Virus record (IMG/VR): IMGVR_UViG_3300000563_000006
Location: 185 to 48,232 of that record
Reading direction: 5' to 3' (one strand)
Length of the DNA stretch: 48,048 nt
Source: a virus
Part shown: positions 1 to 42,712 of the stretch, piece by piece
Layout of the letters: each line of letters opens with the position of its first letter
Position numbering within the stretch: position 1 is the stretch's first letter
Translations under genes and position numbers: made by a program
The notes under the pieces: generated by a model
Databases searched by the model: none
Seen by the model: only the letters and a program-made list of their open reading frames with translations
Told to the model about the DNA's origin: nothing

Positions 1-37
1 GAAATTATTGCTAATGTTGGTTTCATGTTGTTCCTTG

Positions 38-122
38 CGGAGAGTGATGGATTTGAACCACCGCACCACTACGGGCGTCTCGGTTTAGCAAACCGGCCTA
101 TTACCTACTCTAGCAACTCTCC
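38..122 (-). tRNA. tRNA-Ser (anticodon GCU)
   Basis: On the minus strand this folds as a class II tRNA. The acceptor stem pairs GGAGAGT with ACTCTCC, the anticodon loop is TTGCTAA, there is a long variable arm, and the T loop is TTCAAAT. No CCA is encoded after the discriminator G. It reads AGC/AGU codons and is the last tRNA of the array in transcription order within the window. Confidence 0.93.
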
Positions 123-127
123 ATATG

Positions 128-211
128 CAGAGGGTGAGGGATTCGAACCCCCAAACCACAGTGGGCGCTGGTTTTCAAGACCAGTGCAATAGCCAATTCT
201 GCCAACCCTCT
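128..211 (-). tRNA. tRNA-Ser (anticodon UGA)
   Basis: Minus-strand class II tRNA with acceptor pair AGAGGGT/ACCCTCT, anticodon TGA in the sequence TCTTGAAAA, a long variable arm and T loop TTCGAAT. The discriminator is G and no CCA is encoded. It is separated from the neighbouring Ser-GCU gene by only five bases. Confidence 0.94.
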
Positions 212-223
212 ATAATATTTATG

Positions 224-298
224 TACCCTCGGGAGGACTCAAACCTCCGACCCTCGGATTAGAAGTCCGATGCTCTTTTTCAACTGAGCTACGAGGGC
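224..298 (-). tRNA. tRNA-Arg (anticodon UCU)
   Basis: Minus-strand tRNA with acceptor GCCCTCG/CGAGGGT (first pair G-U), anticodon stem TCGGA/TCCGA around loop CTTCTAA, and discriminator A. No CCA is encoded. It would read AGA, a codon favoured by AT-rich phages. Its 5' end at 298 lies directly after the 3' end of the RNase P RNA, so 5' maturation of this tRNA would also create the 3' end of that RNA. Confidence 0.95.
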
Positions 299-489
299 AT
301 GTCGCTATACCTGTAAGCAGGATTCTGTCTACTCCTTTCGGAGGAGGCAATCATTTATCTATGCGACCCACCCAAGAGCTGCACGAGCATAGCTACGCTC
401 TCCTATTTGGTCTTGCTTCGAACTTTCGTCCCGCTCGTTGAAGTCCTGACTTTCCTCTTGCAATACAAGCGATTGCCCGGTATAGCTAG
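299..489 (-). ncRNA. rnpB: RNase P RNA, minimal form lacking most of the specificity domain
   Basis: The catalytic RNA of RNase P matures tRNA 5' ends. Read on the minus strand, the conserved blocks are in the right order: AGAGGAAAGTC (CR I, plus 448-458), GCAAGACCAAATAGGAG (CR IV, 400-416), AGATAAATGATTGCC (346-360) and AGACAGAATCCTGCTTACAG (CR V, 311-330). Helix P1 pairs GCTATACC (479-486) with GGTATAGC (304-311). P2 pairs GGGCAATC (471-478) with GATTGCCT (345-352). P3 is a tiny hairpin, CTTG-TATTG-CAAG (457-469). Between CR I and CR IV, where typical bacterial RNAs have a specificity domain of over 100 nt, there are only about 30 nt closed by CTTC/GAAG. The P18 hairpin is also missing. The length is about 190 nt against roughly 350-400 nt in bacteria. 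The gene abuts tRNA-Glu on the 5' side and tRNA-Arg on the 3' side. The identity is confident from the motifs; activity is an inference. Confidence 0.9.
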
Positions 490-565
490 TACTGCCGGGG
501 GGATTCGAACCCGCCGTTGCCGGATTGAAAGTCCGGAGTCCTAGGCCTGACTAGACGACGGCAGC
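490..565 (-). tRNA. tRNA-Glu (anticodon UUC)
   Basis: Minus-strand tRNA with acceptor GCTGCCG/CGGCAGT (first pair G-U), anticodon stem CCGGA/TCCGG around CTTTCAA, T loop TTCGAAT and discriminator A. No CCA is encoded. The T stem contains one C-C mismatch. Its 3' end is immediately upstream of the RNase P RNA, so trimming of this tRNA would free the 5' end of that RNA. Confidence 0.92.
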
Positions 566-681
566 ATATTGCCTGCTCGGGACTCCTCTTAATTAGAGTG
601 CGAATCATACGAATGATCCGAATACTTGTATGGTATTGGCAGGCACCTATTTCCACCGCCCGATTAAGTGTGATTAATGAG
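566..681 (-). ncRNA. Candidate structured RNA, cloverleaf-like but not a tRNA
   Basis: This is a 116-nt spacer between tRNA-Gly and tRNA-Glu. On the minus strand a 7-bp stem (TGCCTGC with GCAGGCA) closes a junction of three hairpins: AATAC/GTATT with a 7-nt loop, ATCAT/ATGAT with loop TCGT, and CTCT/AGAG with loop AATTA. The outline resembles a cloverleaf, but there is no T loop and no normal anticodon loop. A 5' flank with GGCGGTGGAAATAGG precedes it. It could be a decayed tRNA, a processing signal or a separate small RNA. The pairings are visible; function is unknown. Confidence 0.4.
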
Positions 682-752
682 AGGGGCTATTGAGAATCGA
701 ACTCAAGTCCTCTGATTGGAAGTCAGGTACTTTGCCACTAAGTTATAACCCC
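682..752 (-). tRNA. tRNA-Gly (anticodon UCC)
   Basis: Minus-strand tRNA with acceptor GGGGTTA/TAGCCCC, anticodon loop CTTCCAA and T loop TTCGATT. The discriminator is T and no CCA is encoded. It reads GGA/GGG codons. Confidence 0.92.
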
Positions 753-759
753 TTTATTT

Positions 760-897
760 TTAATCTTTTTTAACTGCAGTTCCAGATACTCCTAAATTTC
801 GCCCTATTTGCTCATAGCCATTCTTTATCATTGAATACTTTTTTGCCTTTAAATAATTTTGACACGCGTAATTTTGGTTAAATGTTATAATTACTTG
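760..897 (-). pseudogene. Remnant of a helix-turn-helix segment, possibly from an HNH endonuclease
   Basis: A gap of about 145 bp between tRNA-Gly and tRNA-Cys is open in one minus-strand frame up to a stop at 760-762. An ATG at 831 would give 23 residues ending GYEQIGRNLGVSGTAVKKD. This resembles the DNA-binding helix-turn-helix tail common in phage HNH homing endonucleases. The open frame continues upstream through a segment with a lone cysteine into the tRNA-Cys gene and has no proper start. I read it as the tail end of a lost homing endonuclease; it could also be chance. Confidence 0.3.
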
Positions 898-969
898 AGA
901 CGCCGGTGAGAGTCGAACTCACTAACACGGGATTTGCAGTCCCGCTCCTCGCCGTTTGGAATCAGCGTC
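898..969 (-). tRNA. tRNA-Cys (anticodon GCA)
   Basis: Minus-strand tRNA with acceptor GACGCTG/CGGCGTC, anticodon stem CGGGA/TCCCG around CTGCAAA, T loop TTCGACT and discriminator T. No CCA is encoded. Confidence 0.93.
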
Positions 970-972
970 GTG

Positions 973-1045
973 AGCTACGAGACGGAATCGAACCGCCGAC
1001 CGGCGCATTACAAGTGCGCTGCTCTACCTGCTGAGCTACCGTAGC
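973..1045 (-). tRNA. tRNA-Thr (anticodon UGU)
   Basis: Minus-strand tRNA with acceptor GCTACGG/TCGTAGC, D arm typical of elongator tRNAs, anticodon stem GCGCA/TGCGC around CTTGTAA, and T loop TTCGATT. No CCA is encoded. It lies three bases from tRNA-Cys. Confidence 0.95.
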
Positions 1046-1050
1046 TTATT

Positions 1051-1124
1051 GCGCGCCGTGTAGGAATCGAACCCACCTCACGAGGTTTTGGAGACCTCAT
1101 CGCCTCCATTGGCATGCCGACGCG
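1051..1124 (-). tRNA. tRNA-Trp (anticodon CCA)
   Basis: Minus-strand tRNA with acceptor CGCGTCG/CGGCGCG, anticodon stem GAGGT/ACCTC around CTCCAAA, and T loop TTCGATT. The exact ends are uncertain by one base because a neighbouring register of the acceptor stem is also possible. Confidence 0.9.
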
Positions 1125-1162
1125 TATCTTCTTCAACATTTTCATTTCAGAGATCCTGTAAA

Positions 1163-2122
1163 TTATTTTATTACAACTATGGTTTTAACAGCCTTGTAAG
1201 CCCCCGCAGCCATGCGATAAAAATAAATACCAGCAGCCAGACCACGTAAATCAACATCTACTGTGTGTAAGCCTCTGTTATAATGTCCGTTCACTAACAC
1301 TACAACCCGCTTACCCAAGAAGTCATACAACTCGATAACAACCTTTTCGGACCTCCCTAGACTAAAATACACGGTCGTAACCTCTTGGGAAGGATTTGGA
1401 AAGTTTTGGTACAACCGAGTTTCAAATTTTAAGTCACTGCTCCCTACCCAAGTAGATGTAGCTTTCACGGTCACCACCGCCCCAACTACCAGCGCTACCG
1501 GCGGATCTGACTGTACAACGCTATCTGGCAGCTCAAATACCCCAACAGCATCATAATCCCCCACGACGCTCGAATCGTAATCAGCAATCGTCCACTCTAG
1601 TCTAACAATATGCGGTACATCTCGACTGTCCACCATTATTGTAGAATCTACCAACGGTACTTCAGCCGCAGGTGTCCCCCATAACACCACTACGTCGTCT
1701 ACTGGCAAAATTGAAACTACGTGGGGTGGTGGTATTGGATCTAACGCCACAATAGTAAACTCAATTACATTAGACCGCACCTCCCGCAACTCCGTATAAT
1801 TTTTTGCCCATAGATGTATATACGGGTTATGCAGCCACACTTTACTATATACCCTGTAGGTACCACCTACAACAGAAAGAAGTCCTTCGTACCTTTCTAA
1901 AGCATAGGGCCCATCCGAATGAAATTTCCCCCGTATAGCAAACGAGCTATCTGCCACCCACCCAGAGTCCGGTTCAATACTACCAACGTAGTCCACAAAA
2001 AAGTAAACAGAATCGATTACATTATTTGTCGATGGTTTAGTAATCTCAACATGAAGCGGAACATCATCTACCCCTCCGACTACTCCAAGCACCAGTGACA
2101 GCAATACAACCGCTAGTCTCAT
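1163..2122 (-). CDS. Secreted protein with C-terminal T9SS type A sorting domain
   Basis: This 319-residue protein starts with a signal peptide (MRLAVVLLSLVLGVVGG). A middle region of about 210 residues has a beta-rich look and no recognised domain. The last 80 or so residues match the type A sorting domain of the type IX secretion system: YQNFPNPS near residue 239, then TTVYFSL, VVIELYDFLGKRV and a final AAGIYFYRM with a VIK end. In the Bacteroidota group this domain directs export across the outer membrane and attachment to the surface. The gene sits between two blocks of tRNA genes on the same strand and looks richer in GC than its neighbours, which suggests recent acquisition from a host. 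No good Shine-Dalgarno site precedes the ATG. The sorting domain is confident; the role (surface alteration, exclusion of other phages) is not known. Confidence 0.85.
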   Translation of the reverse strand: MRLAVVLLSLVLGVVGGVDDVPLHVEITKPSTNNVIDSVYFFVDYVGSIEPDSGWVADSSFAIRGKFHSDGPYALERYEGLLSVVGGTYRVYSKVWLHNPYIHLWAKNYTELREVRSNVIEFTIVALDPIPPPHVVSILPVDDVVVLWGTPAAEVPLVDSTIMVDSRDVPHIVRLEWTIADYDSSVVGDYDAVGVFELPDSVVQSDPPVALVVGAVVTVKATSTWVGSSDLKFETRLYQNFPNPSQEVTTVYFSLGRSEKVVIELYDFLGKRVVVLVNGHYNRGLHTVDVDLRGLAAGIYFYRMAAGAYKAVKTIVVIK

Positions 2123-2211
2123 ACAATAAACCCATTTATTATTTAGCTACCCACCTTCGTTGGTACTCTTGTTGTTTATCTTTATACGGCATTTTTTGTT
2201 ATTGGTTAAAG

Positions 2212-2283
2212 CTCCATCTTTAGGATTTGAACCTAAAACCTGCGCGTTAACAGCGCGCTGCTCTACCGTTGAGCTAAGATGGA
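2212..2283 (-). tRNA. tRNA-Asn (anticodon GUU)
   Basis: Minus-strand tRNA with acceptor TCCATCT/AGATGGA (U at position 1, as usual for Asn), anticodon stem GCGCG/CGCGC around CTGTTAA, T loop TTCAAAT and discriminator G. No CCA is encoded. Confidence 0.94.
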
Positions 2284-2569
2284 ATAATAACCCGCGAGCG
2301 ACTAGCCATTGGACGCTTAGCGCCCTACCCGCGGGTTAATTTATCTATATGCAAGCAACGCCAAAACATAGTTTCAACGTTGCTCGATCTCCTTCACCCA
2401 AATGGAGTGATGAGTCTTAGGTAGGGGTACTGCCACGTCGCTCGGCTGTCTGATGTTTTTATAGCACTGTTAGAGGATATCACCCCAACAAGCGCCGGGA
2501 TTGCTCTTGGCCTAACCGGAACCCCAGACAAACGTCTTAGTGACGCACCGCCGTCACTGAGTACCCTTG
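2284..2569 (-). ncRNA. Candidate structured non-coding RNA between tRNA-Gln and tRNA-Asn
   Basis: This stretch of 286 bases has no convincing reading frame and exactly fills the space between two tRNAs. On the minus strand, GGGTACT (plus 2560-2566) pairs with AGTACCC (2425-2431) and encloses a nested set of helices: hairpin AGTGACG/CGTCACT (2539-2545 with 2552-2558), TGTCTG/CAGACA (2525-2530 with 2447-2452), an inner GTTAGG/CCTCTAAC helix and a bulged hairpin CCAAGAGC/GCTTGTTGG. Downstream are a GCAACG/CGTTGC hairpin (2355-2383) and a 9-bp TAACCCGCG/CGCGGGTTA stem (2288-2338). I do not recognise the family; it is not tmRNA or RNase P RNA. Large ornate RNAs near phage tRNAs are known (for example GOLLD and manA), but I cannot match it to one. 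Confidence 0.55.
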
Positions 2570-2642
2570 CAGACGTGAATGGTTTCGAACCACCAACCTC
2601 AAGGTCCAAAGCCTTGCGCTCTGCCGGTTGAGCTACACGCCT
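2570..2642 (-). tRNA. tRNA-Gln (anticodon UUG)
   Basis: Minus-strand tRNA with acceptor AGGCGTG/CACGTCT, anticodon stem CAAGG/CCTTG around CTTTGGA, T loop TTCGAAA and discriminator G followed by CAA, so no CCA is encoded. Confidence 0.93.
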
Positions 2643-2652
2643 ATTCTTTTAG

Positions 2653-2726
2653 AAGCCACGGAAGGACTTAAACCCTCGACCTCTCGGTCCGTAGCCGAGC
2701 GCTCTTTTCAACTGAGCTACGTGGCC
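2653..2726 (-). tRNA. tRNA-Arg (anticodon ACG)
   Basis: Minus-strand tRNA with acceptor GGCCACG/CGTGGCT (first pair G-U), anticodon stem CTCGG/CCGAG around CTACGGA, and T loop TTTAAGT. It is the first tRNA after the promoter. The anticodon ACG normally requires A-to-I editing by the host TadA to read CGC and CGA. Confidence 0.92.
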
Positions 2727-2804: not shown

Positions 2805-3158
2805 TTATTGCTCTTCATAGCAAACTATTGCCATGAAGTTATTCTCTTTTGGTTGTATTAATATTTCCTTACCGACCAGATCAGCAAGTGATGCTGCCTT
2901 TAAATATTGCAACAGCTTGCCGAGTGTACTAGTGTACAATATCTGTCGATCAGTATCATAATTTAACCATAGACCTTTTACCTTTATCTCTCCACTGTGA
3001 TCTTTTATGAAGACTTCATTAATTTTATATTTAACTCCATCTTCAGCGATAGTATCGAAATACAGCCGTTCACTACCATCTTCTAGAGTTTTAGTGTATA
3101 CGTTTTCGATTTTTACTGTTTTACGACTACCACCTAATTTAAGATTTAATACGTCCAT
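2805..3158 (-). CDS. Hypothetical protein, 117 aa
   Basis: I do not recognise this protein. It is a soluble protein with alternating hydrophobic and charged residues that suggest a beta-rich fold (KTVKIENVYTKTLEDGS, then KYKINEVFIKDHSGEIKVKG), followed by a helical part and an ending LVGKEILIQPKENN. It follows the 90-residue gene by three bases and is the last gene before the terminator at 2767. Its place at the end of a DNA metabolism operon suggests a role there, but nothing more can be said. Confidence 0.7.
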   Translation of the reverse strand: MDVLNLKLGGSRKTVKIENVYTKTLEDGSERLYFDTIAEDGVKYKINEVFIKDHSGEIKVKGLWLNYDTDRQILYTSTLGKLLQYLKAASLADLVGKEILIQPKENNFMAIVCYEEQ

Positions 3159-3161
3159 CTG

Positions 3162-3434
3162 CTACTTGTCTTGGTTTTTCTCATCATAAATTTCATAACC
3201 CATTTCCCGTCTTTGCGCTACTTTTTCTTGGAACGCTTTTATTATTTCCTCATGGGGTCCGGGGCCAATCGCTGGCTTGGGTTTCTGTATAACAAAGTCG
3301 GTTCCATCAGAATCTAATGTCGTCTGTCCCCAACTTATCATTATTACGGATTTGCCATCGTTAAGTTCAATAAGATCCATATCAAAGAACTTATAGATGG
3401 ATTCCTGTTTCGCATGTTTAGCGATCATCCTCAT
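3162..3434 (-). CDS. Hypothetical protein, 90 aa
   Basis: A small soluble protein. The N-terminal half looks like beta strands (DMDLIELNDGKSVIMISWGQTT) and the C-terminal third is a charged helix (EEIIKAFQEKVAQRREMGYEI). Its start overlaps the stop of the ribonucleotide reductase gene by four bases, so the two are probably translationally coupled. No family recognised. Confidence 0.7.
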   Translation of the reverse strand: MRMIAKHAKQESIYKFFDMDLIELNDGKSVIMISWGQTTLDSDGTDFVIQKPKPAIGPGPHEEIIKAFQEKVAQRREMGYEIYDEKNQDK

Positions 3435-6400
3435 TTTTTTATCTCCGGTAATTCACATGAATCACTTTCACAGTATAAGTTTTCCGATTTACCCACATCT
3501 TCCGCTATAGGTTTAATCGGAGCTATTTTTAGTTTTTTCAACATTTTGTTATACTCTTCTTCAGTAATTGTTATATAAGGAGCCTGTTTATACCCGTGCT
3601 CTAGGATCGGCAAAAAGCTAACCGATTTTAATCGAGTCTCGTACAACTGCAAAGCTTCATTTATTTCTTTGGCTTCTTGCGGCTTAAATGTAACTGTTAT
3701 ACTGACAGAGTTATCTGACCAGTAATATTGCATTTGAGCTGCATTTTCCAATTGTTCCCATATTGTAATTTCATCTTTACCTTTGATAAAGTTATCTTCC
3801 TTTATAGGAAAACTAATAACAGAAGTTCCTGGTGAATAAATGTCTGCTTCTACGGGATAACCCGCATTCTCATATACCTTTACTAAAGGATTATTAGAAG
3901 CAATACGAACGTTTCTTATATAATATTCTGAGTGTGGGTAGTGTATCCCTGGAGTAACTCCAGGAAGTAAACTGACAGTACCAGATGGTTTGACAGTTGA
4001 TAGTTTTATTGACCGCGGTATACACAACCAATCAGAATATTGTTTATCTAAAGATTTTAAATATTCGTATCCTTCGTCTGCCCAACCCAATGTTTTTCGT
4101 TTTCCAAACTTACGAAAGGCTTGAGTTATGCCTGTTAAGCTTGTACCTATTCTACGATTACGCATCATAACTGCGTTGACACGCTCATCGTGGGTTGGAA
4201 TTAGTGTTACTGTTTTCGCATATAAGTATGCATATTTCAATGTAGTTTTTAGATCCTCATAAGAACTATGATTTGGTAACATTACTTCTACTAAATTGCA
4301 AAGCTCAAATGACTCTAGGGATTGCTCCCCACAATTGGCCACATTAATGCCAGTATATTCGTAATTTCCACTATCATGTTTTTTTTGATTCACTATAGCT
4401 ACAGTATGATTATCATCTACTGTAATATTATAGACTGTATGTAACCCATCTAAATATTCTATAGATTTTACTCGCGCATTATAATTTTCTGCAGCTTGTT
4501 TTAGTTCTTTATATTCTTTAAAAGAATTTTTAGATCCAGCGAATCTTATGGGAACTTTTTGCTTTTTACATTCGGATTCCCATTCGGTTTTTAAAGGATC
4601 TTTTTGTAATTTATATTTTAGGTCAGAATATACACGTAATTGTTCTATCTTTGTTTTTTCGATATTTTTTCTAAGTACTTCTTTCTGCCGCTTAAATCGT
4701 TTCTGATATACTATGGCATTTTCTTTAGAATTCAGATATTTATTAGAACATGCTGTACTACAGAAAGCTTGTTCACGGCTTTGATAGTTTATGTAGAAAT
4801 TATTTTTACAAATTTCACAAGCTCTTTCAACAAATACCTTTTCATCCTCAATTTTTGCAGTATATCCCTGTTCTAATGCTTTTTGGTATAATCTTAGGGT
4901 TCTAGGATCTAAATCCTGATTTTCAAAACCACATTCATTTGCGGCCCAGAGAGCTAATTGCTTTTCGGAACCTAAACTATCTCTTCTAAATTTCGAAAAT
5001 TGTGAAGGAATTCCAATTTCTTTCGCAAATTGGTTCCATTCTTTTACGCTAAATTTACGTCCCAAAGATTTGGTTAATTCCAGTGCATACTTCTTTAAAT
5101 CATCATTCGAATATCCAGAAAATCTTCCATTTTTGCTACCTTGAGTATCTACCTGAGCGTGCAATTTTGTATGCTCTTTAAATGACATGATTTCTAAATT
5201 TTCGGGAGAATTATTCAATGAATCATAGTCTTTATGGTGTACAGCAAGTCCGCCTTTAATCCAACCATTTTCTTGTTCTTTTTTATATTTTTGATTCCAT
5301 TCTTCGGGATAAAAATATTTTGTAATAATACGATGCTCGAAAATGCGACTATTTTTTGGATTATTAGCATCCAAATGTAGTAGGTAATATAATTTACTAT
5401 CTTTACTGGTTTTCGCTAATCGCTTTTTAAACGGAGATAAACTATCCCCAGGCTGTAAATCTTTTGCCTCAACTTCAACTCCATCCTTTTTGATAAATTT
5501 ATGATTCGGAGTTACATCAAAATAGTTATCGTCGGTTAAATGAACTCTAATTAATTTTTGAGCTGTTCCAGTTATTCTTGGATTTCTTCCCATTTTAATT
5601 GAAATTAATCCTGTTGTCTTATTTAAGGAATATACTGGAACGTCTTTTTCTTCCTTTGCTAATTGTTCTATACTAACTGCATTTCTACCGTCTGCTACTG
5701 CTATTAATGTGTCTTTCGCGTAACATGGATTGAATCCCATGACCCTTCGGTCTTTCCAATTCTCTCCATCTTTTAATCGTCCATATCTTCGTGCGTTATC
5801 TAACCATACATACCCGGGTTCTCCATTAACCGCAGTATCTTGTGCAAATACAGAATAATCTATGCCAACTTTAACAGCTATTGAATTATTACTGGCCCAT
5901 CTATGATGACTTAGTTTATATTCGTTTTGTTTTAACTTTATAAACTCATTATCAAAGGGTGAGCCAATCATTAGCTCTGCAGCTCGCCGCGTATTACCGG
6001 CTACAACGCAACGCCCAATTAGATTAAATATATCAACTATCTGAGTAGAAGATATTTCATATGGCTCAAATTCCTTTATTAAAGAACTGATATCCATGAC
6101 GTCTTCTTTGGGATAGTTCTCTTTAAATCGATTATCGGTTTTACATAACACTTTTATTACATCGTCAACCAAAGCTTTTAAAGGGCCTGGTCCAGATGAG
6201 GTTCCCCCGAAGGTTTTAATTGGTTCGCCCTCAGCACGTATCCTTGAAAAGTCTACTAGCTTGGGAAGTTGCTTTCCTAGAAATGATTCTAGTAAAATTT
6301 CCAATAAAGAAACCCAACTTTCGCGTGTATCTTCTACAACGAAAGTACCATCAATTAGTTTCGGAGGACGGATTGTTACTTTCCCAGCACCTTCCGTATC

Positions 6401-7804
6401 AGCACCAACGCCCACTCCTAACATCATGAAATCCATCATATACGTAAAGGGAGCGGAGAAACTAGTATCTAGCTCGTTTGTGCTTACGAATCCACAATTT
6501 GAAGTTAATATATTATCGGCTAAAGTAAACGCATGTTTTTCAGGAACAATAGCACAAAATACTTCTTCTATTTGATTAGTTTTTTCAACTGACTTTACCG
6601 ACCAATACTGATATTGATCCGTATAGTTTTTTATAAACGATTTTTTATGATGATCGAGTAAAAAGAAATCTTCAGATAAATGTTGCCTCATCAGTTTAAT
6701 AGAATAGCAAGTGTGATTTCTTCCTGTTAAATTAGATTTTCTTGTTTCTGAAATAATTGAATAAGTACCTATTCCCAGAATAGAGCATACTTCTCTAATA
6801 AATAGTATGTTTTCTTTATTATAAGAGTCTATCTCAGGAGATCCACTGCTACAATTTCCATCTGCAGCAAAATAACCTATTAACCACCCATATAAATATG
6901 ACTTGGTTTCATTTATATTAGGTAACTTTTTAAAATAATTGGGTAATCCAGTTATTTTAATATTTAAACCAGATGATTTTTGAGATTCGTTATTATTGAA
7001 GTATTTCTTTAAACATGCATTTTCCTCCCCACAAAGAATTATGTGGTTAGAATTTTTTTGTCCTGGAACTTGAGACCCATCTCCAAAAGAAATGCCGTGC
7101 GCTATCCCAAACGTAGACGGAGTTATATTTTTGATACCTTGTCCAAATGCATATCTTAATCTATGCTTTTCTGGGCGCAAATCTTTAGTTTTAACTCTTA
7201 TCCACTTGTTTGATTTTCTATATGGATTACGCCTGTCTTTTGTAAACCACTCATGGTCTTCGGTAGTATATATAATTTTTTCTACTCCAGATCTAGTAAG
7301 AGTTAATTTCCATAACGTTTGGTTTCCAAAAGATTTTATGGGAGCGGCAATCCATTGCCCATTTTCACTTAGTAGTTCAGCACTACTTCCGGCTAGATCT
7401 CCGATCTTTTTAATTCCTTCAGATGTAATTATCTCAGTATTATACTGAAAACAATTATTTAAAGCCCCAGAGCCTTTAGCACGTATTAGAGGTAAATGCA
7501 TGGCCCATAAACCACGGCCAGGCGGTAGGAACTTAAATTCCCACATACGTCTATACATTTCTTGCGCGCTCTTCTGCGCCTTATGCGCGTTCCACGGAAG
7601 CTTGTATTTATCACAATGTTCTCGTTGAATAGTGTACGCAGCTTCTACTACTCGTTGTAGCGTCTGATGAAACTCTTCTGAGTGTCCATTGTCTTTTCTA
7701 GAATATGTTCGTTTATAAACCATGTAACCTAAAGGCCCCCATTTAGGTTGGGAGCCTTCAAATTCTTTTAAAAAATTATTAGATAGTTTGAATTCTACTG
7801 CCAT
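3431..7804 (-). CDS. nrdJ: Class II (B12-dependent) ribonucleotide reductase, interrupted by two inteins
   Basis: This enzyme makes deoxyribonucleotides using adenosylcobalamin. The 1457-residue precursor contains 674 residues of reductase once inteins at residues 118-436 and 694-1157 are removed, close to the roughly 740 residues of the monomeric Lactobacillus-type enzyme. Visible landmarks are PPGRGLWAM near residue 94, ALNN-CGFVST at the first splice junction (a catalytic cysteine), NP-CGEQSLE at the second junction (the second active-site cysteine with its Glu), a triphosphate-type loop KPSGTVSLLPGVTPG, and a C-terminal redox pair CESDSC. Both inteins begin with Cys, end with Asn and are followed by Cys. 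It is followed by a four-base overlap with the next small gene. The dUTPase lies just upstream, completing a nucleotide supply group. Confidence 0.95.
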   Translation of the reverse strand: MAVEFKLSNNFLKEFEGSQPKWGPLGYMVYKRTYSRKDNGHSEEFHQTLQRVVEAAYTIQREHCDKYKLPWNAHKAQKSAQEMYRRMWEFKFLPPGRGLWAMHLPLIRAKGSGALNNCFQYNTEIITSEGIKKIGDLAGSSAELLSENGQWIAAPIKSFGNQTLWKLTLTRSGVEKIIYTTEDHEWFTKDRRNPYRKSNKWIRVKTKDLRPEKHRLRYAFGQGIKNITPSTFGIAHGISFGDGSQVPGQKNSNHIILCGEENACLKKYFNNNESQKSSGLNIKITGLPNYFKKLPNINETKSYLYGWLIGYFAADGNCSSGSPEIDSYNKENILFIREVCSILGIGTYSIISETRKSNLTGRNHTCYSIKLMRQHLSEDFFLLDHHKKSFIKNYTDQYQYWSVKSVEKTNQIEEVFCAIVPEKHAFTLADNILTSNCGFVSTNELDTSFSAPFTYMMDFMMLGVGVGADTEGAGKVTIRPPKLIDGTFVVEDTRESWVSLLEILLESFLGKQLPKLVDFSRIRAEGEPIKTFGGTSSGPGPLKALVDDVIKVLCKTDNRFKENYPKEDVMDISSLIKEFEPYEISSTQIVDIFNLIGRCVVAGNTRRAAELMIGSPFDNEFIKLKQNEYKLSHHRWASNNSIAVKVGIDYSVFAQDTAVNGEPGYVWLDNARRYGRLKDGENWKDRRVMGFNPCYAKDTLIAVADGRNAVSIEQLAKEEKDVPVYSLNKTTGLISIKMGRNPRITGTAQKLIRVHLTDDNYFDVTPNHKFIKKDGVEVEAKDLQPGDSLSPFKKRLAKTSKDSKLYYLLHLDANNPKNSRIFEHRIITKYFYPEEWNQKYKKEQENGWIKGGLAVHHKDYDSLNNSPENLEIMSFKEHTKLHAQVDTQGSKNGRFSGYSNDDLKKYALELTKSLGRKFSVKEWNQFAKEIGIPSQFSKFRRDSLGSEKQLALWAANECGFENQDLDPRTLRLYQKALEQGYTAKIEDEKVFVERACEICKNNFYINYQSREQAFCSTACSNKYLNSKENAIVYQKRFKRQKEVLRKNIEKTKIEQLRVYSDLKYKLQKDPLKTEWESECKKQKVPIRFAGSKNSFKEYKELKQAAENYNARVKSIEYLDGLHTVYNITVDDNHTVAIVNQKKHDSGNYEYTGINVANCGEQSLESFELCNLVEVMLPNHSSYEDLKTTLKYAYLYAKTVTLIPTHDERVNAVMMRNRRIGTSLTGITQAFRKFGKRKTLGWADEGYEYLKSLDKQYSDWLCIPRSIKLSTVKPSGTVSLLPGVTPGIHYPHSEYYIRNVRIASNNPLVKVYENAGYPVEADIYSPGTSVISFPIKEDNFIKGKDEITIWEQLENAAQMQYYWSDNSVSITVTFKPQEAKEINEALQLYETRLKSVSFLPILEHGYKQAPYITITEEEYNKMLKKLKIAPIKPIAEDVGKSENLYCESDSCELPEIKK
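4334..5725 (-). mobile_element. Intein 2 of the reductase, with HNH endonuclease and zinc-finger region
   Basis: Residues 694-1157 of the precursor (464 aa) lie exactly between NP and CGEQ. The splicing start is CYAKDTLIAVADGR, a block B-like segment is DVTPNHKFIKKDG, and the end is YTGINVAN followed by Cys. The insert has an HNH motif, HHKDYDSLNNSPENLEIMS, at about residues 856-874, and two cysteine pairs (CEIC near 996 and CSTAC near 1015) that suggest a zinc-binding module. Homing by HNH differs from the LAGLIDADG type of intein 1, so the two inteins have separate origins. Confidence 0.92.
6497..7453 (-). mobile_element. Intein 1 of the reductase, with LAGLIDADG endonuclease
   Basis: Residues 118-436 (319 aa) start with CFQYNTEIITSEG and end NILTSN before Cys. 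Two LAGLIDADG-like helices are visible, GIAHGISFGDGS (about 233-244) and YGWLIGYFAADG (about 305-316). A block B-like TEDHEWF and a block F-like VFCAIVPEKHAFTLADN are in place. The penultimate residue is Ser rather than the usual His, which is seen in some active inteins but may slow splicing. Confidence 0.92.
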
Positions 7805-14693: not shown

Positions 14694-15088
14694 ATATTAT
14701 TGGCAGATATCCTTATTTCTTCCCAGCGGACTTTTCCCTCCTCGATCTGTTTTTTAATTTTGGTTTGTTTAGTAGAAAGTTTTGAGTTACCAGTCTTAAC
14801 TTCTAAAAAGATCACCTCTTCATCCTCGAATACTACGAAGTCCACTGGCCTCCCAAGAAAGTGCGAATCATTGACATTATACGGATAGTCCTTCATAAAA
14901 GGTATGAAGTGTTCTACCGCCATTCCGTGTTTACTTTCAACGGAACGTTTTTTGCTTCGCAGTTCCTTAATTTCATCCTGTAGTGCGTTGGCCCGTATGG
15001 ATAGTCTTTTCAATCGAACTAATGAATAGATCAACGTACCGATACAGGTTAGAATTAATATAATAAATAATATGGCTACTAGGTCCAA
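14690..15088 (-). CDS. Membrane-anchored Holliday-junction-resolvase-related endonuclease
   Basis: A single N-terminal membrane helix (LVAILFIILILTCIGTLIYS) and a coiled-coil linker (about residues 30-50) precede a nuclease-like domain: LGRPVDFVVFEDEEVIFLEV, then KTGNSKLSTKQTKIK and VRWEEIRI. The D...E-x-K arrangement matches the Endonuc_Holl family of predicted endonucleases related to archaeal Holliday junction resolvases. It would sit at the inner membrane with the nuclease in the cytoplasm. It overlaps the CCA-enzyme-like gene by ten bases. Being membrane-bound, it may act on incoming DNA rather than in recombination. Confidence 0.8.
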   Translation of the reverse strand: MDLVAILFIILILTCIGTLIYSLVRLKRLSIRANALQDEIKELRSKKRSVESKHGMAVEHFIPFMKDYPYNVNDSHFLGRPVDFVVFEDEEVIFLEVKTGNSKLSTKQTKIKKQIEEGKVRWEEIRISANNI

Positions 15089-16164
15089 TCTTCTAGTTCC
15101 TTTCGTATTTTTCGTTTGAGGTTAATCACCTTTTTCATGCTAATTTTGTTTGGGCTTCCTTGGCGATCCGCCTCTCTTACCTTTAACAGGTCCCATATAT
15201 GCTCAGCCCCAACTCTTTTAATCAGCCTTCTAACTCCGCGGCTAGTCATTTTAGGATCAATATCAAACATATGATGTTTAACCAAATGACTAACCTTATC
15301 GACCAGTTCGGGATTGAATTTTAGATCCGTTAAGGTTTTTCGAGCTATTTCGGCACCGGTGACTTCGTGCCCAAAAAAGTGAATCTGTCCCGATGAAGTT
15401 ATCTGCATGGTGTCCGCTTTCCCGATATCATGAAATAATATGGTAAGGCGTATAGCCAAATCAGTTGGTGTATTATCTAACGCATACATAGTGTGATCAA
15501 AAACGTTAGTAACGCCATCTCGTTTGCTCTGCACCACAGAGTCGCTGAAATGTAACTTGGGGATAATGTACTCTAATAGTCCAGAATCTTTTAACATTTT
15601 AATCCCTGCGGAAGGTTTTTCCGACATAACTATTTTAATCAGTTCATCCCGTATATATTCTGGGCTTACGGATTGCACTAAACTAGCGTAATCGTAAATT
15701 AATATCCAAGTATCGGTATTTAAAACAAACCCTAGTTGTGAAGCTAGACTAACAGCTCTGAGCATTAATTCCGGATTGCTTAAAAAGAGTTTGCGATCAT
15801 TGATCTTTATCAATCTTTGCCTGATATCCGAAAGCCCTCTCATGGGGTCGTGTATCTCAGAGTTAAGCGTTCCGACTGCTATAGAATCTATTGAAAAGTC
15901 CCTAGAGGTTAAGTACCCATATAAATCATTTCCACAATCTATAAATTTATGGTTTTCCTTATTTATAGTAATAAGCTTAGGATAGTTTTTGCCTAGGACT
16001 TTCTCCAGATGTTCATGCGTTGAAACGTTAGTGTCATTGACTATTAATACATCATAATAATCAATGGGCATTGATAAAACCTTGTAATAAATACAACTAC
16101 CAGAGTAGTACGTTTTGATTCCCAGATCATTTAATTTTTCAAATACTTTATTATGTGAATTCAT
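15079..16164 (-). CDS. tRNA nucleotidyltransferase (CCA-adding)-like protein with HD domain
   Basis: A 361-residue protein in the layout of bacterial CCA-adding/poly(A) polymerases with a C-terminal HD domain. The second half of the head domain is clear: RDFSIDSIAVGTL (88-100), HDPMRGLSDIRQRLIKI (105-121), then NPELMLRAVSLASQLGF (130-146). The HD domain has LFHDIGKAD (243-251) and FFGHEVTGAEIA (263 on). The first catalytic segment is degenerate: where the family has GG...RD and D-x-D, this has SGSCIYYKVLSMPIDYYDVLI, so catalytic capacity is uncertain. The phage tRNAs lack an encoded CCA, so such an activity would have a use. It could instead be an HD phosphohydrolase only. Confidence 0.75.
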   Translation of the reverse strand: MNSHNKVFEKLNDLGIKTYYSGSCIYYKVLSMPIDYYDVLIVNDTNVSTHEHLEKVLGKNYPKLITINKENHKFIDCGNDLYGYLTSRDFSIDSIAVGTLNSEIHDPMRGLSDIRQRLIKINDRKLFLSNPELMLRAVSLASQLGFVLNTDTWILIYDYASLVQSVSPEYIRDELIKIVMSEKPSAGIKMLKDSGLLEYIIPKLHFSDSVVQSKRDGVTNVFDHTMYALDNTPTDLAIRLTILFHDIGKADTMQITSSGQIHFFGHEVTGAEIARKTLTDLKFNPELVDKVSHLVKHHMFDIDPKMTSRGVRRLIKRVGAEHIWDLLKVREADRQGSPNKISMKKVINLKRKIRKELEDWT

Positions 16165-19054: not shown

Positions 19055-19362
19055 TCCTTGATGGGGTTAATGTTGAACCTGATTCTCTACGAGAGGCTGT
19101 TTTAATAAATGAAAAGCAACGAAAGGAAGGGCTGGAAACTATGCAGTTTCAGTTGTTGCTGTCTGCTATCCTAACCGACAAGCAAGATTCTACCGGAATG
19201 AATAAGCTTAACCAACTACTATCAAAGTATAACGATCTTATACGTCCAGATAGAGTTAAATCTAGAGGTAAGTTTGTTAAAAAGAATGAAGACTTACTAA
19301 AAGATATGAAGTCATTTAATTTTAAAAAAGTGAAAGTAGAAAATAATGCCCTTATTCAGTGA
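18638..19362 (+). CDS. Tail assembly chaperone, long form by -1 frameshift (gpGT-like)
   Basis: The -1 frame is open from the slippery site to a stop at 19362 and has no start codon of its own near the junction. The fused protein has 127 residues from the short form and 114 from the downstream frame (starting YHNPINRKRVQLILDG, ending VENNALIQ), 241 in all. The downstream part ends 17 bases inside the tape measure gene. In lambda and many other phages this long form binds the tape measure protein while the tail tube forms. The frameshift is inferred from the site, the open frame and the position. Confidence 0.78.
19012..19018 (+). promoter_or_regulatory. Slippery heptamer A AAT TTT for -1 frameshifting
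   Basis: The heptamer is in frame as X XXY YYZ (GAA AAT TTT in frame 0). Both tRNAs can re-pair one base back on AAA TTT. No clear downstream stem-loop was picked out by eye. Confidence 0.72.
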
Positions 19363-24842: not shown

Positions 24843-25556
24843 ATGACAAGAGAACAAGAATTTGAAACTTGGCAAAAATGGAAACAAACCGGTCGCGGGG
24901 AACACCTCACCGATCTGATAAAGTCCATGGATCCCCTGCTACAAAAGCAGGTTAATAAATTTTCAGCTGCCCCACTTCCTAGACCATTTTTAGAGTCTAA
25001 AGCCAAGGTTTTAGCTGCTAAAGCGTTGAGAACCTACGACCCAACCAAAGGCGCTGCTTTAGGTACGCATGTTACAAATGAACTACGGCATTTAAGTCGT
25101 GAAGTGGCTGAGTACCAAAACGTTGGTAGAATTCCCGAGGCTAGAGTACTGACTATATCCAAGTTTAATAATATAAAATCTCACCTGGAGCAGGACCTGG
25201 GCAGAGAACCCAACACATATGAACTAGCTGATGCACTGAGCTGGAATGTGCGAGAAGTAGAGCGTATGCAGCTTGAAATGCGAAAGGACCTAACAGCCGA
25301 TGAGGAAATTGACCCAATGTTTGGTACACATTTTATTGAGTCTGATCGACCATTAGATGCTGCACATTTCGTTTATCACAGCTTAAGCAATAACGAGGAA
25401 CGTAAACTATTAGAACATATGTTCGGATTATGGGGTGCGCCAAGAATAACATCTACTGCTGAGTTAGCTAGACGATTAGGTAAATCACAAACCGCTATAA
25501 GAAATATGAAGAAAAGACTAGCATCTGAAATTAACAGAGTATCGAGGAAGATGTAA
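24843..25556 (+). CDS. Sigma-70-family RNA polymerase sigma factor
   Basis: A 237-residue protein. A region 2-like segment (about 30-95: KALRTYDPTKGAALGTHVTN is the core) is followed by a region 3-like helix bundle (SHLEQDLGREPNTYELADAL, about 125-145) and a region 4 helix-turn-helix (STAELARRLGKSQTAIRNMK, about 203-222). This is the order of primary-type sigma factors, in a shortened form comparable to flagellar or phage sigma factors. It would redirect host RNA polymerase, probably to late genes, though I found no separate late promoter class. It has its own promoter within the tail gene block. Confidence 0.85.
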   Translation: MTREQEFETWQKWKQTGRGEHLTDLIKSMDPLLQKQVNKFSAAPLPRPFLESKAKVLAAKALRTYDPTKGAALGTHVTNELRHLSREVAEYQNVGRIPEARVLTISKFNNIKSHLEQDLGREPNTYELADALSWNVREVERMQLEMRKDLTADEEIDPMFGTHFIESDRPLDAAHFVYHSLSNNEERKLLEHMFGLWGAPRITSTAELARRLGKSQTAIRNMKKRLASEINRVSRKM

Positions 25557-39844: not shown

Positions 39845-42712
39845 ATGCCAAATACATTAGGACGTGAGTTCCTTAACGTGGCCCCAGCGGAACGTTATGG
39901 AACCAGATTGAATTATCCAAATCCGTTTTTCGACCTGTCTAGGCTATACTACCCGAAAACAGTTAAACATTTATTTCGTATATGTAAAATATTCTTTTAC
40001 AAAAACGAATTTATACACAATGTAATATTTAAGCTCGCAGAGTATCCAGTCACAGATTTTATATTCGAGGGAGCAAATGACCCTGGAATACAAAGCGAAT
40101 ACGTGGAGCTATTTAACTACCATTTAAAACTGAAATCATTTTTAATTGAAGTTGGTCTGGATTATTTTACCTATGGTAACGCAATTATATCGGCCAACAT
40201 GAAATTTAAAAGATTCTTGAAGTGCACTGAGTGTGGATTCGAGAATCCAATAGAGCAGACTAAATATAAATTTACTAACTATAACTTTGTGGGTAAATGT
40301 GAAAAATGTGGTCGTGAAGCCGTAACCTTTAAAATACAAGATCATTATTCAAAAAGCCCTAAAGCTTTAAAATTCATACGTTGGAATCCAGAAAGTATCG
40401 ACATAGAGTACGACGAACTAACGGGAGATAGTAAATACTATTATACAATACATCCGCGTATACGTAAGGCTATAAACGCTGGTAGAAAACCTGTTCTAGA
40501 GACAACTCCTGCGATCTTTATTGAGGCGCTGAAATCCGGAAAACGAATTGAACTAGATCCCGGTAACCTATATCACTTTAAACGACCTACACTGGCCGAA
40601 GAAGATATGGGGTGGGGTAAACCTCTTATACTTCCAGCTATACCAATGCTTTGGTACCTACAAACGCTACGACGAGGTAACGAGGCTATTGTTGCGGACC
40701 ACTTAGTTCCTATGAGAAGTGTGTTCCCAAGTAGTCAAGGCACAATTGATCCATACTGTTTAGATGTAGATTCTTTTATATTAACTAAAGACGGAATAAA
40801 ACAGGCTGGAGAGTTAACTAAAAACGATATTCTTATAACCGAAAACCATAAATATACTAAAATAAAAGAGTTAAAATTTGAATTAGCTCAGAATTTATAC
40901 AAAATACATATTCATGGATTATCCAGTTTTAATCCCACGGCAACTAACGTGCATCCTTTTAGGGTGTACGATACTCAAGAAATAAAGTGGAAGTCCGCTA
41001 GTGAGTTGACAACGGACGATTTAATTGTTTATCCACGCAAAAAAATTAAAAATCTTCCTACTAAATATTTACTAACAAAAAATCTTTTAGGAGAGCAGCT
41101 AAGAAAATGCAAACATAATCTACCTGAAAAAATTGAGTTAACGAATGAAGTGTTACAATTATTTGGGCTATATTTAGCTGAGGGATGTTCTTATGAAACT
41201 GGTAAAGTAGAATTTGCGTTTCATACAAAAGAGCAAAATTATTATCAACTAATTAAAAAAATTCTTGATTCCTGGTTACCTGAATCTGAATCAAAAGTGT
41301 ATACTCGTGGTAATTCAACTTCAGTCGCTAAATACAGCGTTTATTTACAGAAAATGTTCTCTAACTTATTGGGTAATAAATGCACATGCAAAACAACAAG
41401 AAAATTACCTGAATTAAATAGATCCCAATTAATATCGCTATTAAAAGGAGTATATCAAGGAGATGGTACATTTTTCTATGAAAAAAATAAATTTCCACGA
41501 TTAGCCTTGAAGTCTATTAATCTAAATTTAATTGTCGAAATACGAGAACATCTTATTTCATTGGGGTATTATCCAACTATTGTGCGCGATAAGTCTTATT
41601 CTCATGATGGTCCGGTTGGAAAATGCTATCAATTAAAATTAACAGGATATCAAGCTGAACAATTGGCAAAAGAATTTGGATTTAAAACACAGAACAGATA
41701 CACCAAAGATTTAAATAACAGATATACTATTTATGATAATTTTATTACCGTTAAAATAAATAAAATTGAAAAAATTGAAAATGCTGTGATAGCCGCCTTT
41801 GAAGTTGAGGATGCAACAAAATCGTATTTATCTCTAGGATTTATAAATCATAATACACAAATTAACCTAGGTAAATGGAGATCGCAAGTAGAAACCCAAG
41901 TTGGTCGTTGGCGACAAGATCCAAATCATATTGGAATATTTCCAATACCTATGGGTCTACAGCAATTAGGTGGACAAGCAAAAATGCTCAACGCAACTCC
42001 GGAAATGAAGTTCCTAGAAGAAAGCATTATTAATAGTTTTGGTGTTCCTATCGAGTTCATTAAAGGTGGAAGTACCTGGACTAGCAGTTCAGTGTCATTA
42101 CGTATTGTAGAGAACCACTTCCTGCAATATCGTGAACAGCTTGCAGAGTTTTTAAACTTTTTCGTTATTCCAAAAATAAAAGGATTTCTAAAATATCCTC
42201 CGGTAAAGATACGGTTCCAGAAATTCAAAATGTCAGACGATGCACAACACAAAGAATTCTTACTAATGCTGTCACAAACTGGTAAATTAGCGGATGAATA
42301 CATACTGACTGAGTCGGGAATCGATTATGAAGAAAATAAGAGAATGCTTAAGAACCAATCACGTGATCAGGTTGATCGTCAACGCGATATGATGACGGCG
42401 GAAGCAAAAGCTCAAGCTAAAGGTATGGAACATCAAGCTAAAGGACAAGCCCGTGCACAAGAAGCGCTAATCGATGAGACCGCACGAATTCAGGAACGTA
42501 AATTCACAGAAGAGCTAATGCTTGAGATGCAAGCTCCTAATGAAGATCCTAGCAATATCATACAAAGGTATGCTATACAACTTAGCGGTATGCAGCCCAG
42601 AGAACAAGACGCTGCATTAAAAGACCTTGCCAAGTCTATGCCGTTAACATTCGGGTTTGTGATTAACCGATTAAGAAACATGATGGCAGCGGCAGGAGGT
42701 GAGCAACGATGA
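39845..42712 (+). CDS. Portal protein, interrupted by an intein
   Basis: The portal forms the dodecameric gate of the capsid. The 955-residue precursor contains 589 residues of portal after removal of the intein at residues 305-670. Landmarks are a tail-like start, a zinc-ribbon insert (CTECGFENP at 127-135 and CEKCGREA at 152-159), VGLDYFTYGNAIISANMKFK, and a C-terminal coiled region (AKGMEHQAKGQARAQEALID). The zinc ribbon inside a portal is typical of some large phages. The portal is the last large gene of the rightward block. There is an AGGAGGT site at its end serving the next small gene. Confidence 0.88.
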   Translation: MPNTLGREFLNVAPAERYGTRLNYPNPFFDLSRLYYPKTVKHLFRICKIFFYKNEFIHNVIFKLAEYPVTDFIFEGANDPGIQSEYVELFNYHLKLKSFLIEVGLDYFTYGNAIISANMKFKRFLKCTECGFENPIEQTKYKFTNYNFVGKCEKCGREAVTFKIQDHYSKSPKALKFIRWNPESIDIEYDELTGDSKYYYTIHPRIRKAINAGRKPVLETTPAIFIEALKSGKRIELDPGNLYHFKRPTLAEEDMGWGKPLILPAIPMLWYLQTLRRGNEAIVADHLVPMRSVFPSSQGTIDPYCLDVDSFILTKDGIKQAGELTKNDILITENHKYTKIKELKFELAQNLYKIHIHGLSSFNPTATNVHPFRVYDTQEIKWKSASELTTDDLIVYPRKKIKNLPTKYLLTKNLLGEQLRKCKHNLPEKIELTNEVLQLFGLYLAEGCSYETGKVEFAFHTKEQNYYQLIKKILDSWLPESESKVYTRGNSTSVAKYSVYLQKMFSNLLGNKCTCKTTRKLPELNRSQLISLLKGVYQGDGTFFYEKNKFPRLALKSINLNLIVEIREHLISLGYYPTIVRDKSYSHDGPVGKCYQLKLTGYQAEQLAKEFGFKTQNRYTKDLNNRYTIYDNFITVKINKIEKIENAVIAAFEVEDATKSYLSLGFINHNTQINLGKWRSQVETQVGRWRQDPNHIGIFPIPMGLQQLGGQAKMLNATPEMKFLEESIINSFGVPIEFIKGGSTWTSSSVSLRIVENHFLQYREQLAEFLNFFVIPKIKGFLKYPPVKIRFQKFKMSDDAQHKEFLLMLSQTGKLADEYILTESGIDYEENKRMLKNQSRDQVDRQRDMMTAEAKAQAKGMEHQAKGQARAQEALIDETARIQERKFTEELMLEMQAPNEDPSNIIQRYAIQLSGMQPREQDAALKDLAKSMPLTFGFVINRLRNMMAAAGGEQR
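40757..41854 (+). mobile_element. Portal intein with LAGLIDADG endonuclease
   Basis: Residues 305-670 (366 aa) start CLDVDSFILTKDG and end SLGFINHN, followed by Thr. The two LAGLIDADG-type helices are LFGLYLAEG (439-447) and LLKGVYQGDG (532-541). TNVHPF is a block B-like segment. The His-Asn end is intact. The first extein residue after it is Thr rather than Cys, an accepted but less common choice. Confidence 0.93.

Follow-up and report, generated by a model that had tools for sequence, protein, structure and literature searches.

Phage-encoded cargo of the bacterial type IX secretion system (T9SS) has already been published. The report on Cryophage (Bellas et al. 2020, PMC7468147), in the portions of its text used here, describes a 76 kb Bacteroidetes phage with genes for proteins that carry T9SS type A sorting domains; its three cargo genes, for an endoglucanase, a GH39 protein and a PA14 protein, vary between locations. 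The authors presumed that the host machinery is hijacked and proposed a role in superinfection exclusion. Similarly, the cited section of a study of crAss-like gut phages (PMC6949934) describes a BACON ORF near the head genes that contains a T9SS sorting domain. Within the open-licence literature covered, these two appear to be the papers that matter for the question. Few phage genes are known to dress the infected cell by way of a host secretion system. At the locus described here, the orphan body of the cargo protein and its genomic setting are new.

The analyzed window of 48,048 nucleotides comprises bases 185–48,232 of a 48,232-base IMG/VR contig (IMGVR_UViG_3300000563_000006, designated G000) that is classed as linear. 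The source DNA is a tailed phage. Window proteins match portal and baseplate-wedge PHROGs, a ribonucleotide reductase with inteins, a dUTPase and a DNA ligase are encoded, and the gene order is common to the window and four relatives of 169–210 kb (G002, G018, G004 and G023). The closest annotated phage portals, those of Vibrio phage D181 and three other phages, are approximately 30% identical. Portal, baseplate wedge and synteny place the cargo gene on a phage genome, with the ORF near the contig end and the structural genes far from it, at about 19–43 kb of the window. In the ribonucleotide reductase gene (3431–7804, minus strand), two intein stretches occur together with a match to an HNH endonuclease; the portal gene (39845–42712, plus strand) has a LAGLIDADG-type intein. 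A Sigma-70 region 3 protein encoded amid the structural genes (24843–25556, plus strand) is a probable phage sigma factor.

Table 1 Window coordinates of the tRNA array and of the predicted cargo protein.
Feature	Position	Strand	Basis or remark
Cargo ORF, predicted T9SS type A cargo	1163-2122	-	ATG start, 319 aa
Cluster of 11 tRNA genes enclosing the cargo ORF	37-2726	-	tRNA calls, all minus strand
tRNA-Trp (cca), downstream neighbor on the coding strand	1051-1123	-	tRNA call
tRNA-Asn (gtt), upstream neighbor on the coding strand	2211-2283	-	tRNA call
RNase P RNA without specificity domain	298-488	-	RF00010, 106.8 bits (gathering score 100)
Signal peptide-like N-terminus, residues 1-19, end approximate	2066-2122	-	Sequence reading and hydropathy heuristic
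Orphan middle region, residues 20-236 (217 aa)	1415-2065	-	No family or relative detected
T9SS C-terminal sorting domain, residues 241-317 of 319	1172-1402	-	TIGR04183 and PF18962

The C-terminus of the cargo protein scores above the cut-off of both curated sorting-domain models, with 39.5 bits against TIGR04183 (E 4.1e-10; cut-off 23) and 41.1 bits against PF18962 (E 2.2e-10; cut-off 27), which bears out the first-pass annotation of this DNA. By these sequence scores the match is far beyond chance, and the domain occupies the very C-terminus of the protein. The same annotation had called the domain textbook, which overstates the case a little: it has the N-F-P-N-P core, but S-Q-E comes next, where at least 90% of the aligned tails continue with F-N-P. 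The invariant positions across 26 bacterial tails are L237, Q239, N240, P242, N243, P244, T249, G270, G298 and Y300. Structure prediction models the tail at high confidence (62 residues with pLDDT of at least 90). A Foldseek query, which took in the poorly modeled rest of the protein as well as the tail, matched the tails of mirolase (8qb1), NucA (8glk) and RemA (8gl6) with E values of 1.4e-3 to 1.7e-2 and TMt of 0.57–0.75. The predicted tail thus resembles the β-sandwich tails of solved T9SS cargo, and the ORF product is very probably a T9SS type A cargo.

The N-terminus reads MR, then the hydrophobic stretch LAVVLLSLVLGVV, then the small residues GGV, and the protein contains no cysteine. 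Only this protein among the 56 of the window passes a crude hydropathy test for signal peptides. Both readings agree with the export signal that had been proposed for it, and point to a putative signal peptide. The rest of the protein, for which a homologue search had been advised, is an orphan. No Pfam family comes near its cut-off in residues 20–236, Pfam shows neither an enzyme nor a carbohydrate-binding family in residues 1–236, and no PHROG matches the middle region. Relatives of the N-terminal and middle part were found neither in viral contigs and phage records nor in 13 related contigs and 27 bacterial genomes, and the whole protein has no match at E ≤ 1 among 50,697 phage records, so that the middle 217 residues are without a detectable relative. 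The best bacterial match (L111, E 0.0057) was discarded as a chance hit: the long ORF in which it falls looks, on visual reading, like a transcription-repair helicase (Mfd). A suspected resemblance of residues 134–222 to a bacterial Ig-like (Big_4) domain was dropped, there being no such Pfam match. Models of the middle region show some β-strands at pLDDT values mostly below 50; fold matches outside the tail (interleukin receptors, complement) were set aside because the model of this region is unusable.

A search with the tail confirmed at least 501 relatives among at least 576 stretches, of which the best 80 were kept (L031–L110). Among the matches listed, the nearest sorting tails belong mostly to Ignavibacteria, KSB1 and Candidatus Zixiibacteriota (Zixibacteria). 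The PorU sortase model (NF033707) matches in all 27 genomes drawn from the best 80 tails, in 26 of them over its cut-off, and finds nothing in this phage contig or in the related contig G052 described below. The phage would therefore rely on host machinery. The sorting domain points to a probable T9SS-bearing host, as originally proposed, which can be narrowed to one with the Ignavibacteria/KSB1/Zixibacteria type of tail. The cargo tail gives a clue to which bacteria a group of large, uncultured phages infect.

The portal search returned 23 related contigs, 10 of them shorter than 20 kb; the PF18962 domain was found in none of the 23. Viral T9SS tails were sought by tail alignment and one exact peptide motif, which yielded 52 stretches and four confirmed viral contigs. 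One of these, G052 (IMGVR_UViG_3300031673_011235, 81,655 bases), is genuinely related: its portal is 55% identical over 282 residues, an AAA protein 48% and a helicase 43%, and its baseplate and tail genes are in matching order with those of the window. G052 encodes a T9SS protein of 438 residues (L115:6936–8252) with a signal-like start and a NosD-like β-helix, whose sorting domain scores 38.5 bits. The two cargo proteins are alike in having a signal-like start, in belonging to the same tail family and in being carried by phages with syntenic replication and structural genes. In contrast, the G052 protein has a β-helix body, and its gene lies outside a tRNA array, with tail genes around it as well as two genes that look, on visual reading, like glycosyltransferases; only the tails are alike, with 28% identity over 89 residues. 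Two related phages with unrelated T9SS cargo at different loci fit separate acquisitions. In two further contigs, G053 and G054, the sorting domain is the only thing in common with the window; G054, which also has a T9SS cargo gene, contains a Pistol ribozyme (L130:14319–14380, plus strand; 49.5 bits, gathering score 34.5). One of the four finds, L114, looks by eye as if a tail gene had been joined to a sorting domain.

We consider the best overall explanation to be a phage-carried T9SS cargo that would be exported by the host and may coat or remodel its surface against competing phages, with a probability of roughly 0.6. A T9SS-bearing member of the Bacteroidota/Ignavibacteria/KSB1/Zixibacteria assemblage would have been the source of the gene, which the phage then retained in its tRNA array. 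In the infected cell, the signal peptide would direct the product across the inner membrane via Sec. By established T9SS biology, the host system would then recognize the C-terminal tail and carry the protein across the outer membrane, and the PorU sortase would remove the tail, leaving the product on the surface or releasing it. The exported part may coat or remodel the host surface and limit adsorption by competing phages. Such superinfection exclusion, suggested by analogy, is put forward tentatively as the most likely function. Several observations tell against the overall explanation: the full protein has no close relative in the searches made, none of the 23 portal relatives has a sorting domain, the tail motif has S-Q-E in place of F-N-P, and the ORF is preceded by neither a Shine-Dalgarno-like motif nor an excess of promoter-like sites over chance. 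Alteration of the cell surface by the cargo product, which had been anticipated for infection or lysogeny, would be a reasonable inference. Lysogeny is unsupported: a Pfam scan of 20 window proteins shows neither an integrase nor a repressor, a weak negative given that the contig is a fragment.

The export route may also be retained for another purpose, namely glycan binding or processing, or adhesion of the infected cell, and a glycan-related role is possible and nearly as likely as superinfection exclusion. T9SS cargo of other phages has the look of glycan-active proteins. The Cryophage cargo comprises an endoglucanase, GH39 and PA14 proteins according to the text cited (PMC7468147), the G052 cargo has its NosD-like β-helix, and the crAss-like ORF combines BACON with a sorting domain in the section cited (PMC6949934). 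Against such a role stands the absence of any enzyme or carbohydrate-binding family in the Pfam comparison of residues 1–236, a span whose middle part cannot be judged from its model.

Base composition bears on the origin of the gene and on its benefit to the phage. The cargo ORF has a GC of 0.452 and a GC3 of 0.401, versus 0.376 ± 0.040 and 0.288 ± 0.048 in the other genes taken as 193 overlapping blocks of 319 codons; third-position G is 0.279 versus a maximum of 0.232 among those blocks. GC alone is not unique to this ORF, since an 869-residue ORF at 19346 reaches 0.464, and by per-codon departure the cargo ORF ranks ninth of 55 genes, the eight ahead all being shorter. The shift on which the first-pass annotation based capture from a host is thus moderately supported; the capture itself is plausible from the sequence rather than proven. 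No Shine-Dalgarno-like motif precedes the ORF, a motif present at 20 of 56 window genes and in 9% of random windows, and promoter-like sites there do not exceed chance expectation. The foreign composition, the lack of a detectable ribosome-binding motif and the lack of a related protein in other members of the lineage would all suit a recently captured passenger that brings the phage no benefit and is heading for loss. This reading is improbable: the ORF runs uninterrupted through 319 codons, and G052 has its own, different T9SS cargo. That a related phage carries a different cargo with a signal-like start elsewhere is an argument for the usefulness of such cargo to the lineage.

The cargo gene lies inside a phage tRNA array, as first described, and the array also contains an RNase P RNA of 191 nt in which the region of the specificity domain, 142 positions in the model, is down to a stub of 4 nt. 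This RNA keeps the conserved catalytic motifs and directly adjoins tRNA-Arg and tRNA-Glu, and it is perhaps more unusual than the cargo gene. RF00010 matches none of the 23 portal-related contigs, no viral contig matched a pattern written for RNase P RNAs that lack the specificity domain (a weak negative, as the pattern requires exact matches), and titles and abstract beginnings of the open-licence literature yielded no report of a phage-encoded RNase P RNA. No CCA is encoded after any of the 11 array tRNAs. A protein with PolyA_pol RNA-binding and HD domains (15079–16164, minus strand) is, by that architecture, a relative of CCA-adding enzymes. Given this relative, the lack of tRNA-encoded CCA and the RNase P RNA, the phage may carry parts for the maturation of both tRNA ends.

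Among 296 genomes from the phylum to which genome G028 belongs, 264 match the array tRNAs, as do 28 of 29 genomes of a mixed set. The best match is 86% over 87 nt (G310), and bacterial matches reach 84–86% over about 85 nt. The three best matches in the mixed set are Ignavibacteria-labeled, but a Latescibacterota genome is close to them and the tRNA host signal is therefore weak. The RNase P RNA is at best 64% identical, with an Ignavibacteriales copy, among 28 of 29 copies compared; L187, in which the conserved GAAAGTC could not be located, was left out. Both RNAs would agree weakly with an Ignavibacteria-type host. One Ignavibacteria genome (G029) has two RNase P RNA matches over the cut-off (L200 and L207, 436 and 399 nt). 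In the arrays of the four large relatives lie 6 of 37 heuristic matches to exported-protein genes, no clear enrichment as the arrays make up roughly 8–13% of those contigs. By eye, one ORF in these arrays has a type IV pilin-like start (G004 125657, minus strand) and two have lipoprotein-like starts (G002 37819 and 48671, plus strand).

These data also bear on whether the first ~2.8 kb, with tRNAs, RNase P RNA and cargo ORF, is bacterial DNA misassembled onto the phage. The region is at the contig end (the window begins at base 185) and richer in GC (0.44–0.50), its tRNAs are closer to bacterial ones than to the same-anticodon tRNAs of the relatives (53–75%), and no portal relative shares its RF00010 match. 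However, RNase P RNA copies measure 366–464 nt in all 28 bacterial genomes tested, so that the 191-nt RNA without specificity domain marks the region as something other than ordinary host DNA. The large relatives likewise have clusters of 16–27 tRNAs, and the array abuts a gene on the same strand (2805–3158) that is conserved beside the ribonucleotide reductase or dUTPase gene in all four. Misassembly is accordingly rated highly improbable. Ig-like β-sandwich domains are common in phage virions, but a virion protein whose C-terminal β-sandwich merely resembles a sorting tail is scarcely credible in view of the curated models passed over cut-off, the signal-like N-terminus and the distance from the structural genes.

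Host-exported T9SS cargo acting at the cell surface, our preferred reading, may be part of a wider pattern. Large tRNA-rich phages of Ignavibacteria-like hosts might repeatedly acquire unrelated T9SS cargo and display an orphan surface domain that changes adsorption, here along with a miniature RNase P RNA; this extension is conceivable, although on balance doubtful. T9SS type A cargo encoded on the chromosomes of Ignavibacteria, KSB1, Zixibacteria and other bacteria (L031–L110) resembles the phage protein in its tail, with 28–45% identity in the best segment, and differs in its bodies, with open frames of 222–1137 residues in the 32 loci read out. As far as the cited texts describe them, Cryophage (PMC7468147) and the crAss-like phage (PMC6949934) share with this phage a sorting-domain protein encoded in the phage genome. 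Unlike Cryophage, this phage has a single orphan-domain cargo, placed in a tRNA array, its relatives reach 169–210 kb, and its cargo tail is nearest, among the matches listed, to those of Ignavibacteria, KSB1 and Zixibacteria. The crAss-like ORF, from gut phages, differs in its BACON domains and its location near head genes. Two different cargos in related phages, together with the Ignavibacteria/KSB1/Zixibacteria-like tail, suggest a habit wider than the published cases.
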